DNA of 64,000 bases, from assembly GCA_021740845.1 (NCBI GenBank), contig JAIOYZ010000001.1, positions 211,246 through 275,245 of the forward strand. The letters run 5' to 3'. This document shows positions 26,664 through 63,130 of the stretch, one piece after another. Positions within the stretch are counted from its first letter, which is position 1, and every line of letters starts with the position of its first letter. The position numbers and the translations under genes were made by a program. This DNA comes from Bacteroidia bacterium (GTDB lineage: Bacteria; Bacteroidota; Bacteroidia; UKL13-3). The notes under the pieces are model-generated. The model made no database searches, was not told where the DNA came from, and saw only the letters and a list, made by a program, of their open reading frames with translations.

Positions 26664-27503
26664 ATGAAAACAGATTTGGAATTAAAAGAATTGGTAAGAG
26701 AAAAGTATGCAGAAATTGCTAACCAAGACAAAGAAACAAATATGAGTTCTTGCTGTGGTAGCGGTTCTTGTTCTACAGAAGTGTATAATATCATGAGTGA
26801 AGATTATACAAAATTAGAAGGTTATGCAGTTGATGCCGACTTAGGTTTGGGTTGCGGAATACCAACCGAACATGCTTTATTAGCTCCCGGACAAACCGTT
26901 ATAGATTTAGGCAGCGGAGCAGGCAACGATTGTTTTATTGCGAGGAGTTTTGTTGGCGAATCTGGTAAAGTAATAGGCATTGATTTTACCCAAGAAATGA
27001 TTGATAAAGCAAGAATCAATGCTGATAATTTGGGCTATAATAATGTAGAGTTCCGCTTTGGTGATATAGAAAAAATGCCTGTTGCAGCAGATAGAGCAGA
27101 CGTGGTAGTGAGTAATTGTGTGCTCAATTTAGTTCCAAATAAAAAGAATGTAATCAACGAAATTTTTCGTGTGTTAAAGCCTGGTGGACATTTCAGTATT
27201 TCAGATGTTGTGCTTAAAGGAATACTTCCTACAGAATTGCAAAATGCTGCAGAAATGTACGCGGGTTGTGTTAGTGGTGCCATTCAAAAAGAAGAGTATT
27301 TGCAGTTTATTCAGGAAGCTGGATTCAAAAATATCTTGGTTCAAAAAGAAAAAGTAATAAATATACCAAACGATATTTTGGCCAAATACTTAGATGAAAA
27401 TGCTTTGAATGAATTTGAAACTAAAGGTCAAGGAATTTTTAGCATAACTGTTTATGCCGAAAAACCTGAAGCTTGTTGTACTCCTGGTGGTGGCTGTTGC
27501 TAA
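26664..27503 (+). CDS. arsM: Arsenite S-adenosylmethionine methyltransferase
   Basis: The 279 residues are the normal ArsM length. SAM motif I is DLGSGAGND (81-89). Cys64 (LGLGCGIPTEHA), Cys152 (VVSNCVLNL) and Cys202 (YAGCVSGA) are in the conserved ArsM positions that bind As(III). Extra cysteine clusters lie near the N-terminus (SSCCGSGSC) and at the C-terminus (CCTPGGGCC) and may help capture the metalloid. It converts As(III) to methylated arsenicals, some of them volatile. Confidence 0.93.
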   Translation: MKTDLELKELVREKYAEIANQDKETNMSSCCGSGSCSTEVYNIMSEDYTKLEGYAVDADLGLGCGIPTEHALLAPGQTVIDLGSGAGNDCFIARSFVGESGKVIGIDFTQEMIDKARINADNLGYNNVEFRFGDIEKMPVAADRADVVVSNCVLNLVPNKKNVINEIFRVLKPGGHFSISDVVLKGILPTELQNAAEMYAGCVSGAIQKEEYLQFIQEAGFKNILVQKEKVINIPNDILAKYLDENALNEFETKGQGIFSITVYAEKPEACCTPGGGCC

Positions 27504-27516
27504 TTGGTGAGCGATT

Positions 27517-28551
27517 ATGAAATTAAAGTTTTTAGATAGGTTTTTAACGCTTTGGATTTTTCTAAGCATTGCTTTAGGATTGTCTGTATCCGTTGTTTTT
27601 CCTCAATTTGTTGAGGTATTAAATAGTAATTTGTTTTCTTCTGGAAGTACAAATTGGTTATTGGCAATAGGCTTATTATTAATGATGTTTCCGCCTTTTG
27701 TAAAGGTAAAATACCAAGAGTTACCTGCCGTTTTTAAGGATGTAAAATTGCTTGGCTTTACCTTATTATTCAATTGGATTATTGCCCCATTGGTAATGTT
27801 TACCTTGGCATGTATTTTCATGCAAGATAATCCCGAATATTTCACAGGATTAATCTTAATTGGAATTGCACCTTGCATTGCCATGGTTTTGGTTTGGAGC
27901 GAACTTGCTGGAGGAAATAGAGAGTACGGAACAGGTTTGGTTGCCTTAAATAGCATCCTTCAAATTTTATTGTTTAGTGGCTATGCTTGGTTCCTATTAT
28001 CTGTTTTGCCTGCTTGGGTAGGATTAAAAAACTTGGTAGTGGATATTCCCATGTCGGAGATTGCCAAAACAGTTGGTATTTATTTAGGCATTCCGTTTTT
28101 GGCTGGTTATATAACTAGAAAAATTGTTTTAAACTTTAAAGGTGACAAATGGTTGAACCAAAAGTTTATTCCATTTATTTCACCTCTTACTTTAATTGCA
28201 TTATTGTTCACTATTTTTCTAATGTTTTCTCTCAAGGGCGCAAGCGTTTTAGAGTTGCCATTTGAAGTAATTAGAGTTGCCATTCCACTACTATTATTTT
28301 TCCTTATTTTATTTATGTCGGTATTTTTTATTGCAAAATCTATAGGCATATCTTATGAGAAAAATGTAACTGTTTCCCTAACTGCCTCAAGCAATAATTT
28401 TGAATTGGCCATCGCTGTTTCAATTGGTGTTTTTGGTTTGCAATCTGGGGAGGCATTTGCTGGTATTATTGGTCCTTTGGTGGAAGTTCCAATTATGTTG
28501 GCCTTGGTGAAATTTGCTAAAAATCAACAAAAAAAATATTCAAAATCTTAA
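27517..28551 (+). CDS. acr3: Acr3-type arsenite efflux permease
   Basis: A 344-residue inner-membrane protein with ten predicted helices. The invariant Acr3 cysteine is present as Cys120 in LIGIAPCIAMVLVWSELAGGNREY; the glutamate-containing helix near the C-terminus is FGLQSGEAFAGIIGPLVEVPIML. It exports As(III) using the membrane potential. It works with arsC, which supplies As(III), and is regulated by arsR in the same operon. Confidence 0.93.
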   Translation: MKLKFLDRFLTLWIFLSIALGLSVSVVFPQFVEVLNSNLFSSGSTNWLLAIGLLLMMFPPFVKVKYQELPAVFKDVKLLGFTLLFNWIIAPLVMFTLACIFMQDNPEYFTGLILIGIAPCIAMVLVWSELAGGNREYGTGLVALNSILQILLFSGYAWFLLSVLPAWVGLKNLVVDIPMSEIAKTVGIYLGIPFLAGYITRKIVLNFKGDKWLNQKFIPFISPLTLIALLFTIFLMFSLKGASVLELPFEVIRVAIPLLLFFLILFMSVFFIAKSIGISYEKNVTVSLTASSNNFELAIAVSIGVFGLQSGEAFAGIIGPLVEVPIMLALVKFAKNQQKKYSKS

Positions 28552-28561
28552 GTATTATTAA

Positions 28562-28975
28562 ATGAAAAAAATACTCGTTTTATGCACTGGAAATAGTTGC
28601 CGTAGTCAAATGGCTCATGGTTATTTAGAGAAGTTCGCTGCTGGCAAAGCTGCCATTTATAGCGCAGGTATAGAAACTCATGGTTTGAACCAAAGAGCCG
28701 TTAAAGTTATGTTAGAAGATGGCGTTGATATTTCTTCTAATACTTCCAATAATGTTTTAGAATATTTGGATATTCCTTTTGATTATATCCTCACAGTGTG
28801 CGATCATGCAAATGAAAATTGCCCTTATATTCCTGGCAATGCAGAACGCTTTCATTATAATTTTCCAGATCCTGCAAAAGCAACAGGTACCGAAGATGAA
28901 ATTCTAGAAAAATTTAGATACACCCAAGGTTTGGTAAAAGCTTATTGCCAAGAATTTTTGTTAAATAAAATCTAA
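28562..28975 (+). CDS. arsC: Arsenate reductase, thioredoxin-coupled (LMW phosphatase fold)
   Basis: A 137-residue protein with the CX5R P-loop CTGNSCR (Cys8 to Arg14) and the redox pair Cys80 and Cys87 in VCDHANENCPYIPG. This matches the C10/C82/C89 arrangement of the pI258-type enzyme and not the glutaredoxin-coupled type. It reduces As(V) to As(III) for Acr3 or ArsM. An interspersed-motif copy is read as GLNQ (28682-28691). It is the last gene of the operon and is followed at once by the motif-built hairpin. Confidence 0.93.
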   Translation: MKKILVLCTGNSCRSQMAHGYLEKFAAGKAAIYSAGIETHGLNQRAVKVMLEDGVDISSNTSNNVLEYLDIPFDYILTVCDHANENCPYIPGNAERFHYNFPDPAKATGTEDEILEKFRYTQGLVKAYCQEFLLNKI

Positions 28976-28980
28976 AAAAA

Positions 28981-29018
28981 AATCGGTTTGAACCAATATA
29001 TTTTGGTTCAAACCGATT
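28981..29018. terminator. Bidirectional terminator made of two inverted copies of the interspersed motif
   Basis: Left arm AATCGGTTTGAACCAA (28981-28996), six-base loop (28997-29002), right arm TTGGTTCAAACCGATT (29003-29018): a perfect 16-bp stem. An A run precedes it and an A/T-rich stretch follows. It sits between the convergent arsC and zinc-peptidase genes, where it can stop transcription from either side. Confidence 0.85.
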
Positions 29019-29044
29019 AAATATTAATAGTTAGATTGGAGATA

Positions 29045-29716
29045 TTAATCTCTTCTACCCATATAAATTTGAAGGTAATACAATAAGGTGGCAATAGATG
29101 CCAATGCTGCTACAACATAAGTACTAGCCGCCCATTTTAACGCATCTTTAGTCATTGGATATTCATCCTGTCTTACAATTCCTTTTGTATCCAACCAAGC
29201 CAATGCTCTTCTACTTGCATCAAATTCTACAGGCAAAGTAATAATTGAAAACAAAGTTGTTGCTGCAAACAAAATAATACCTGCTAATAATAATGCTGGG
29301 AAACTATTAAGTAACAAAATACCTCCTAATAAAACCCATTGCATGTATTTAGATGCAATGCTTACAACTGGCACCACACTCGATCTAAATTGAAGCCAAA
29401 CATAGGCTTTAGAATGTTGCACGGCATGCCCGCATTCGTGTGCAGCAACTGCTGCGGCAATTACACTTCTGCCGTAAAATACGTCATGACTCAAATTCAC
29501 AGTTTTCTTTTCTGGATGGTAATGGTCGGTTAATTGGCCTTCAACACTTTATACTTGTACATCAAAAATGCCATTGTCTTTTAACATCATTTTGGCAATT
29601 TCTTCACCTGTTAAATGGTTAGCTAAGCCAACTTGAGAATATTCTTTTACCTTAGATTTAAAGCGCCAGCTCACATAAAAGCTAAGCAGCATAGGAACGA
29701 TAATGTATAAAATCAT
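29045..29716 (-). pseudogene. Zinc metallopeptidase (YugP-like) interrupted by an in-frame stop
   Basis: From the ATG at 29716 the frame reads MILYIIVPMLLSFYVSWRF and continues as family-like sequence to VQV, meets TAA at codon 56 (29549-29551), and continues in the same frame with SVEGQLTDHYHPEKKTVNLS to the normal end. The zinc site HECGH (about residues 93-97) and three or four membrane helices lie after the stop. Total length of 223 codons fits YugP-like membrane zinc peptidases. There is no frameshift. Either this is a recent nonsense mutation or a base-calling error; a GTG at 29500 could restart the distal part, but it would lack the first membrane segment. Confidence 0.8.
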
Positions 29717-29741
29717 ACTTGTTTATTTTGAGATGGATTTC

Positions 29742-29906
29742 TTACAAGGAGCGTACCATTCGCACAATTAGTACAATTATGGCAAAAAGGAATAGCAAAA
29801 TGCTAATTCGATTTATTCCATGCATCACTTTTAGGTTAAATGATGACGGAGTGTCAGGGTTTGGCTTTTTCCAAAACAGAATATACTGCAAAAATTTATT
29901 CCACAT
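29742..29906 (-). CDS. Small single-helix membrane protein (DUF6728-like)
   Basis: A 54-residue protein beginning MWNKFLQYILFWKKPN, with SFNLKVMHGINRISI followed by a membrane helix (LLFLFAIIVLIVRMV). Similar short proteins with an FNLRxMHGINRISI core are, from memory, conserved in Bacteroidota as DUF6728. The gene lies 25 bases upstream of the zinc peptidase gene on the same strand, so they are likely to be co-transcribed. Function is unknown. Confidence 0.6.
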   Translation of the reverse strand: MWNKFLQYILFWKKPNPDTPSSFNLKVMHGINRISILLFLFAIIVLIVRMVRSL

Positions 29907-29966
29907 AATGGCACAAAACTAATCAAAAATTGGGGATAGGGAAATTTGATTTTTAGTGTAAATAAA

Positions 29967-29996
29967 AAATATTTTTAGACTTATCTAAAAATATTT
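29967..29996. promoter_or_regulatory. Perfect dyad, probable operator for the MntR-like regulator
   Basis: Two 13-base arms AAATATTTTTAGA (29967-29979) and TCTAAAAATATTT (29984-29996) are exact reverse complements around CTTA. The dyad ends 13 bases before the ATG of the DtxR/MntR-family gene. The TTTAGA/TCTAAA core is like DtxR/MntR-family operators, which points to autoregulation of the regulator-transporter pair by metal. Confidence 0.7.
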
Positions 29997-30009
29997 ATAA
30001 GTTTGTGAC

Positions 30010-30681
30010 ATGTATTCGTTTACAGAAGAAAATTATTTAAAAGCCATCTATAAATTGCAAGAGCAATCGGATGCCAATATTAACACAAATGCCATTGCGC
30101 TTAGTGTTCAAACCAAAGCTGCATCTGTTACAGATATGGTTAAGAAGCTATCTGAAAAGAAATTGCTAAAATACGAAAAGTATAAAGGTGTAGAATTAAC
30201 GGCGGAGGGAAAAAGGGTTGCAATTGAAACGGTTAGAAAGCACCGTTTGTGGGAAACATTTTTGCATACCAAGTTAAACTTTTCTTGGGATACCGTTCAC
30301 GATATTGCAGAGCAATTGGAACATATTCAATCGCAAGAATTGGTAGATAAATTGGATGAATTTTTAGGTTTTCCTAAACACGATCCACATGGAGATCCAA
30401 TTCCAGCAAGAGATGGAGAGATTCAAAGAGGAAATTTTGTACAATTAAATGAATTGAAAACTGGAGAAGAAGGTGTTATTAGTGGCGTGGTTAACCATAG
30501 CTCAGTTTTCCTAAAACACTTGGAGAAAAATGAATTAACCCTTGGCAAAAAAATTCGAATAATGGAAATTAGTGAATTTGATCAATCGGTGCAAATTTGG
30601 CTCAATGAAAATTCTAAAATGCAATTGAGCAACGAAGTAGTTAGAAATATCTTAGTTAAAAAGGGCATTTCTTATGAATAA
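30010..30681 (+). CDS. DtxR/MntR-family metal-dependent regulator
   Basis: A 223-residue protein: N-terminal winged helix (YLKAIYKLQEQ, TNAIALSVQTKAASVTDMVKKLSEKKLLKYEKYKGVELT), a dimerisation and metal-binding domain (HRLWETFLHTKLNFSWDTVHDIAEQLEHIQS, with FLGFPKHDPHGDPIP) and a C-terminal FeoA/SH3-like domain from about 150. On binding Mn(II) or Fe(II) it should repress the operon through the dyad upstream. It overlaps the Nramp gene by eight bases, so regulator and transporter are translationally coupled. Mn is the likelier metal given the Nramp partner. Confidence 0.92.
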   Translation: MYSFTEENYLKAIYKLQEQSDANINTNAIALSVQTKAASVTDMVKKLSEKKLLKYEKYKGVELTAEGKRVAIETVRKHRLWETFLHTKLNFSWDTVHDIAEQLEHIQSQELVDKLDEFLGFPKHDPHGDPIPARDGEIQRGNFVQLNELKTGEEGVISGVVNHSSVFLKHLEKNELTLGKKIRIMEISEFDQSVQIWLNENSKMQLSNEVVRNILVKKGISYE

Positions 30682-63120: not shown

Positions 63121-63130
63121 GGTTCAAACC
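63121..63130 (-). repeat. Interspersed motif upstream of the membrane PAS gene
   Basis: An exact GGTTCAAACC within a longer near-palindrome (63117-63134), 16 bases before the ATG at 63147. It sits in the 250-base AT-rich divergent region between the two sensor genes; nothing else is recognised there. Confidence 0.8.

Follow-up and report, generated by a model that had tools for sequence, protein, structure and literature searches.

Introduction

Uptake sequences, the short repeated words tied to self-DNA recognition, have been described for the Pasteurellaceae and the Neisseriaceae (PMC7811141, in the portion available to us). The closest precedent for the locus considered here comes from Kingsford et al. 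(PMC1852404), where the accessible sections of the paper describe paired uptake words that have been co-opted as transcription terminators and are enriched between convergent genes. According to the same sections, inverted pairs within 10 nt number 50 and 25 in H. influenzae, as against 1 and 0 direct pairs, with inverted counts of 226 and 5 in N. meningitidis and of 6 and 8 in H. ducreyi; the word is carried by about 55% of confident Neisseria terminators, and the favoured order of the two copies is explained there by the A-rich 5' flank of the uptake word.

Within the Bacteroidota, transformation of Riemerella anatipestifer (Flavobacteriaceae) involves ComEC, DprA, ComF and RecA, together with four proteins unlike known machinery (PMC8459023, in the excerpts at hand). 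Our search of titles and abstract openings found no report of an uptake word in Bacteroidetes, Bacteroidota or Chitinophagaceae, the matches listed for the motif string itself were unrelated by title, and the available parts of PMC5217627 and PMC3630211 make no mention of "Bacteroid-". Here we describe an inverted pair of a highly abundant word at the junction of two convergent genes in a Bacteroidota genome, and we consider both what the pair may do and what the word may be.

Results

The arsC / peptidase junction

The stretch of DNA analysed, hereafter the window, is 64,000 nt long, and all coordinates are positions in the whole of it. The features that matter for the junction are as follows.

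320 to 63130, no single strand: 26 copies of the motif GGTTTGAACC/GGTTCAAACC over the window, 13 per strand, the first at 320-329 and the last at 63121-63130
28562 to 28975, plus strand: arsC-like gene of 137 aa (PF01451, low-molecular-weight phosphatase fold)
28682 to 28691, plus strand: extra motif copy within the arsC coding sequence, from the motif scan
28974 to 28980, minus strand: T-tract of 7 T outside the stem, which would complete the terminator for the peptidase gene
28981 to 28996, plus strand: left arm AATCGGTTTGAACCAA, read from the sequence, containing GGTTTGAACC at 28985-28994
28997 to 29002, no strand: loop TATATT of 6 bases, read from the sequence and the fold
29003 to 29018, minus strand: right arm TTGGTTCAAACCGATT, with the motif on the minus strand (GGTTCAAACC at 29005-29014 on the plus strand)
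29045 to 29533, minus strand: 3' portion of a gene for a zinc metallopeptidase (PF04298), the transcript of which would stop at the hairpin

An earlier, sequence-only reading of this DNA had placed two motif copies in exact inversion here, and direct reading bears it out: the two arms are exact reverse complements over 16 bases, lying 5 bases from the stop of arsC and 26 bases from that of the convergent minus-strand peptidase gene. An 80-nt stretch around the hairpin folds at -26.4 kcal/mol (z -7.5) on the plus strand and at -24.8 kcal/mol (z -6.4) on the minus strand, a stability that none of 200 shuffles matched, with G-C pairs at only 6 of the 16 positions of the stem. The T-tract overlaps the final two bases of the arsC stop codon.

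The same reading took the hairpin to be a terminator between the convergent genes, which the sequence supports for one strand and not for the other. On the minus strand, a stable 16-bp stem follows the peptidase stop codon and leads directly into 7 T, and a consensus terminator scan of positions 27400-30100 picked out this hairpin with its T-rich tail; the scan gave 3 matches in all, as against 2.0 expected by chance, and every one of them was on the minus strand. The plus strand yielded no scan match in 27400-30100 and has no T-tract after the stem (AAATATTA). Since the T-tract lies on the minus strand only, we consider the hairpin to be, by sequence, a predicted one-way intrinsic terminator for the peptidase gene, in which the U-tract would pause the polymerase and the 16-bp RNA hairpin would then free the transcript. 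Of the 21 Rfam matches with an E of 1 or below, not one comes close to its gathering score.

The peptidase frame (29045-29712, minus strand) carries an in-frame stop upstream of 29533, leaving an open frame of 167 aa as compared with 223-262 aa in 14 congeners; judging from these frames, either the gene is broken in this genome or the assembly is in error.

The same junction in congeners

A protein search found the peptidase in 15 of 19 genomes of the genus, this one included, and the stretch after its stop codon could be read in 11 of the 14 relatives (loci L077, L078 and L080 gave no frame). The motif is absent within 160 bases of the peptidase stop, even with one mismatch allowed, in all 11 readable relatives, and seven of these (L069, L070, L071, L072, L075, L076 and L081, counted by eye from printed sequences) have an ordinary hairpin with A and T runs at its flanks. 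In congener G003 (L081) the neighbour of the peptidase gene is likewise a convergent arsC, and the gap between them holds AAAAAAAGCCC...GGGCTTTTTTT, an ordinary GCCC hairpin with a T-run, instead of the motif pair. Thus, the pair in the present genome occupies the place that a standard terminator has in G003.

Abundance and location of the word

Genome-wide, GGTTTGAACC occurs 1318 times, 672 and 646 by strand, whilst the reversed control word occurs 33 times (18 and 15); it therefore shows the thousand or so copies, shared equally between the strands, that characterise an uptake sequence, although the congeners have fewer. The core of the word is GGTTTGAACCNA and its extended consensus, drawn from 155 sites in 455 kb, is TTCGGTTTGAACCAAA, with TTC before the core, AAA after it and an A at position 12 in 98% of sites. 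The word thus has the extended, directional flanking consensus of an uptake sequence, and beyond about 16 bases no consensus column exceeds 0.16 bits.

By our own simple dicodon gene caller, which is not a curated annotation, 80 of the 155 sites are intergenic and 75 are coding, the latter in several frames, in DNA that is 87% coding and 12.5% intergenic. Density per kb is about 1.95 in convergent gaps, 1.7 in divergent gaps and 1.5 and 0.9 in the two kinds of codirectional gap, and this similarity indicates that single copies are not tied to gene ends. Orientation is unbiased along 355 kb of contig C49 (63 plus, 58 minus). The perfect palindrome GGTTCGAACC is also over-represented, at 28 over both strands (14 places) in the 455-kb sample against 0.3 expected by the same count; it is raised in G003, G004, G008 and G010 as well. 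We had considered a motif-free island as a feature of its own, and dropped it, as the gaps between sites have a mean of 2.9 kb and an SD of 3.0 kb, as for random sites; the longest on C49, at 15.2 kb, lies within the window.

Distribution among genomes

The word was searched for in 147 genomes, namely this one, 18 congeners and 128 others, with reversed words as controls, which are imperfect for words this short. Every one of the 18 congeners is enriched in GGTTTGAACC, with 46-839 copies as against 6-37 of the control, the lowest ratio being 2.5 in G013 (60 vs 24). The 128 other genomes have at most 53 copies (G044, control 22). The loose form YTGAACCMAA has 120-1054 copies in the congeners (controls 27-110), 15 of the 18 standing at at least 5 times the control; none of the 128 others does so, although 25 of them reach at least 2 times, the highest ratio outside the genus being 4.8 (G067, 91 vs 19). 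Three of the four genomes of genus g7 (G024, G035 and G050) hold YTGAACCMAA at about 3 times the control, at the density of the poorest congeners, which perhaps represents an older or weaker form of the word. From these counts the strict word is bound to the genus, and the loose form only mostly so. The word also comes in dialects, as uptake sequences do in sister species: G003 and G004, which have fewer copies of GGTTTGAACC, favour CTGAACCMAA.

Among further observations on these genomes, the YTGAACCMAA excess, about 2-3 times the control over the four genomes of genus g7 of the family, is smaller in G044 than in G024, G035 and G050, and G044 has other over-represented 10-mers, such as TGAAGGGGTC and CTTCAGGGTC (L131-L134). 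In G064 and G067, which belong to other families of the class, YTGAACCMAA stands at 3.8 and 4.8 times the reversed control, with low counts of 96 and 91. G003 carries a palindromic repeat around GGTCGCGACC, found 10 times over both strands, or at about five places, in 140 kb (L088-L092, L121-L122).

The 13-mer CGGTTTGAACCAA is found 723 times in this genome; in the remaining 295 of 296 genomes sampled from the phylum, none of which belongs to its genus or family, counts run from 0 to 2 per genome. A scan of viral contigs for TTCGGTTTGAACCAAA returned 21 stretches; in the 4-14 kb examined of each, the core occurs once in 19 and twice in 2, and nothing points to phages rich in the motif. The peptidase has relatives on a single stretch of viral contig, which lacks the motif. 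When further genome contigs were scanned for paired motifs, one stretch was found (L047), identical over 3030 bases to locus L125 of G010. The Nramp protein of the window, compared with plasmids by tblastn, was best matched among 570 records by Persicobacter psychrovividus (64% identity over 69% of the protein).

Conservation of the word

An alignment of 250 kb between congeners G008 and G010 has 94% identity. In it, 67 of 74 G008 sites are intact in G010 and 67 of 78 G010 sites are intact in G008 (binomial P 7e-11 and 1e-8), as compared with 56% of 10-mers of the same G+C content and 65% of two-mismatch variants of the word; the sites' own flanks are intact in only 38 and 32 of 74 and in 34 and 43 of 78. 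Positions 2 to 10 of the word are kept in 96-100% of cases and position 12 in 100%. Coding sites are intact in 53 of 59 cases both ways (control 56%) and intergenic sites in 14 of 15 and 14 of 18 (controls 54% and 52%), so the word appears to be maintained both within and between genes. DNA exchange between the two lineages could have added to this conservation.

Just 15 of the 74 aligned G008 sites are intergenic, and the intergenic preference is therefore weaker there than in the present genome. DNA that G008 and G010 do not have in common holds 7 copies in 57 kb as against 17.7 expected (P 0.0035); taken singly, the depletion reaches significance for G010, with 1 copy in 26 kb (P 0.006), and not for G008, with 6 in 31 kb (P 0.38). 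At about 72% identity only very few single sites can be compared: 0 of 5 are kept each way with G005, and 1 of 2 and 1 of 1, the same site, with G008.

Inverted pairs across the genome

We surveyed the whole genome for exact tail-to-tail pairs within 30 nt (60 nt had been proposed), using our own gene calls. There are 18 such pairs, as well as 12 head-to-head and 4 direct; the numbers fall to 12, 4 and 1 within 16 nt, and to 3 tail-to-tail and 1 head-to-head within 10 nt. Uniform placement would give 3.3 pairs of each inverted kind within 30 nt, and placement with intergenic clustering 7.9. With clustering allowed for, tail-to-tail pairs are in excess by about 2.3-fold (P 0.0013) and head-to-head pairs show no excess (P 0.10), whereas direct pairs fall short (4 vs 15.8 expected, P 0.0005).

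Fourteen of the 18 tail-to-tail pairs are intergenic and four lie within genes. Convergent genes flank eight of those 14; for intergenic head-to-head pairs the figure is 1 of 11, and for single intergenic copies 8 of 78. A stop codon lies within 30 nt of 8 of the 18 tail-to-tail and 2 of the 12 head-to-head pairs. Other inverted pairs at gene ends thus exist, and their absence, which the sequence-only reading had named as grounds for refutation, is not what the genome shows. In six of the eight convergent pairs, 6 or more of 8 bases are T in a terminating direction, compared with 16 of 79 single intergenic copies on the outer 5' side (P 0.03).

That reading had gone further, seeing in the arsC/peptidase pair its strongest local support for an uptake sequence, and here we part from it. 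Tail-to-tail pairs take up 36 of the 1318 copies (2.7%), to which head-to-head pairs within 30 nt add 24. In 455 kb we counted 393 gene ends; perfect hairpins of at least 7 bp stand at 48 of them, of which only 2 use the motif, both being ends of the arsC/peptidase locus. All 18 congeners together have just 3 tail-to-tail pairs within 16 nt (one in G008, two in G010), and those with 655-839 copies have 0-2 each; in the three richest, 0.5-0.8 would be expected in each under uniform placement and 1.3-2.0 with the clustering of the present genome, so that pairing there is about at chance. Given that so few copies are used and that the richest congeners pair at chance level, the pairing lends modest support to an uptake sequence, and abundance and conservation lend stronger support.

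Some pairs deserve mention in their own right. One of the three congener pairs lies between convergent genes, at a locus common to G008 (L123) and G010 (L124); the two genomes are 93% identical there over 3 kb, and the pair has almost the same arms in both but a different loop in each. One head-to-head pair, at L109, has T-rich tails on both sides. Three of the head-to-head pairs, nearly identical and grouped within 5 kb, make up one repeat at L052:11369-16276 (about 91.4-96.3 kb of contig C49); they sit in longer direct repeats, of 71 bases in three copies and of 217 in two, along a run of minus-strand genes with long gaps.

Candidate uptake machinery

All 19 genomes of the genus have ComEC, as do 10 of 14 control genomes. 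Matches to the T2SSE family (PilB/PilT) were short and weak: they came from 10 of the 19 genomes, a single one passed the cut-off, and none was full-length. Known uptake sequences go with a type IV pilus machine and its minor-pilin receptor; by this family search the known pilus route is not seen, and a receptor would need to be of another kind. Matches to the DUF5689 family, to which a Riemerella protein belongs, are weak as well: 10 of 19 genomes have one at an E of 0.001 or below, and in 3 of 19, this genome not among them, it passes the cut-off.

Discussion

Abundance, strand symmetry, near-restriction to one genus, variants between species and conservation together lead us to regard the word as a putative self-mark, through which members of a Bacteroidota genus would tell the DNA of their own kind from other DNA and favour it for uptake; this is its most likely role. 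With somewhat better than even confidence, we posit that the junction holds a predicted terminator for the peptidase gene, built from two copies of a genus-wide, uptake-sequence-like word. The terminator part of this proposal is grounded in what can be read from the DNA, namely the stem, the T-tract, their place after the stop codon and the ordinary hairpin terminator at the same junction of a congener. As the word is abundant on both strands, two inverted copies would offer easy raw material for such a hairpin.

Could the pair instead be a chance meeting of two abundant words beside an A-run, with no terminator function? The tail-to-tail excess is about 2.3-fold over the clustered expectation, the peptidase gene has an in-frame stop, and 10 of the 18 tail-to-tail pairs lie more than 30 nt from any stop codon, all of which would suit such an accident. 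We nevertheless consider it improbable, in light of how strongly convergent gaps draw the intergenic tail-to-tail pairs, as compared with head-to-head pairs (P 0.03) and with single copies (P 0.0002), and of the T-runs that follow six of the eight convergent pairs in the terminating direction. A fairer challenge concerns the word rather than the pair: an ordinary intrinsic terminator might have formed from sites for a chromosome-wide DNA-binding protein, involved in nucleoid organisation, segregation or global regulation, with no part in uptake. The near-palindromic core and the over-represented palindrome would suit a dimeric protein, and strong conservation fits any binding site, which makes a chromosome-organising protein a fair rival. 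On the other hand, 1318 copies, about half of the sampled ones in genes and all gap kinds served alike, are ill-suited to a regulator; the lack of an orientation preference along 355 kb is ill-suited to a segregation guide; and the flanks are asymmetric. We hold this explanation to be unlikely, yet worth keeping in view.

Two further candidates fare worse. Chi and KOPS sites are expected to show strand bias. A Chi-like signal for RecBCD/AddAB-type repair would likewise be abundant, short and largely genus-specific, but the word has no strand bias in the genome (672 and 646) or on C49 (63 and 58) and prefers intergenic DNA (80 of 155 sites in 12.5% of bases), and we judge this reading very unlikely. 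Slighter still is the probability of a dispersed palindromic repeat of REP/MITE type that spread by transposition and formed terminators by chance. Inverted pairs occur, and three near-identical head-to-head pairs on C49 lie in longer repeats, but the sites have little common sequence past about 16 bases (155 sites), 75 of 155 copies are coding in several frames, and inverted pairs within 30 nt account for 36 plus 24 of the 1318 copies; the longer homologous unit and the intergenic confinement of such elements are not seen, save for that one local exception on C49. Taken together, abundance, strand symmetry, genic copies, a range nearly limited to the genus, species variants, conservation and the thinning of copies in unshared DNA would be better explained by a self-mark than by a regulator, by a repeat element or by a Chi-like site.

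A bolder form of the self-mark proposal has a true DNA uptake sequence with dialects across the genus, read by a receptor other than a type IV pilus, whose paired copies have started to serve as terminators, all of it with an origin independent of the Neisseriaceae and the Pasteurellaceae. We regard this fuller account as evenly poised between true and false. A word kept by selection throughout a genus of Bacteroidota, where the search gave no full-length pilus motor, would suggest a separate origin of self-DNA recognition. It would also be a lead towards the DNA receptor in the outer membrane of these bacteria, and a second case in which to test how uptake words accumulate. The pair itself would represent co-option into a terminator, and the congener with an ordinary terminator at the same junction allows the two states to be compared.

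Set beside known systems, the hairpin resembles intrinsic (Rho-independent) terminators in its stable stem and T-tract just past a stop codon, and differs from them in having G-C pairs at 6 of 16 stem positions, in being made of a word repeated genome-wide and in carrying its T-tract on one strand only. The transformation route of Riemerella anatipestifer is akin in that competence involves ComEC, and a receptor of another kind may hold there too; the available excerpts of PMC8459023 mention no uptake sequence, unlike the proposal here, and its DUF5689 family was matched only weakly in the genus. With the USS of the Pasteurellaceae (AAGTGCGGT; Haemophilus influenzae), the word has in common hundreds to about 1500 copies per genome, equal strands, extended flanks and, by the accessible sections of the literature, inverted pairs far outnumbering direct ones. 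It is nonetheless unrelated in sequence and in phylum, its inverted pairs are rarer, its flanks lack A- and T-tails, and no full-length pilus motor match accompanies it. The DUS of the Neisseriaceae (GCCGTCTGAA) and its dialects offer the parallel of a lineage-bound word with variants in sister species, here the GGTTTGAACC and CTGAACCMAA forms, and of pairs between convergent genes, but the word sits at only 2 of 48 hairpin-bearing gene ends here, well below the share of confident Neisseria terminators given in those parts of PMC1852404 that we could consult.

As far as the accessible sections of Kingsford et al. allow comparison, then, enrichment between convergent genes and scarcity of direct pairs are alike, whilst the number of pairs here is at the low end. 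The order of the two copies does not lend itself to comparison between words, since the name tail-to-tail depends on which strand is chosen as forward. What does differ is the 5' flank, which is TTC and not A-rich, so that a tail-to-tail pair brings no T-tail with it and the T-tail must arise separately; this additional step may explain why so few pairs are found here.
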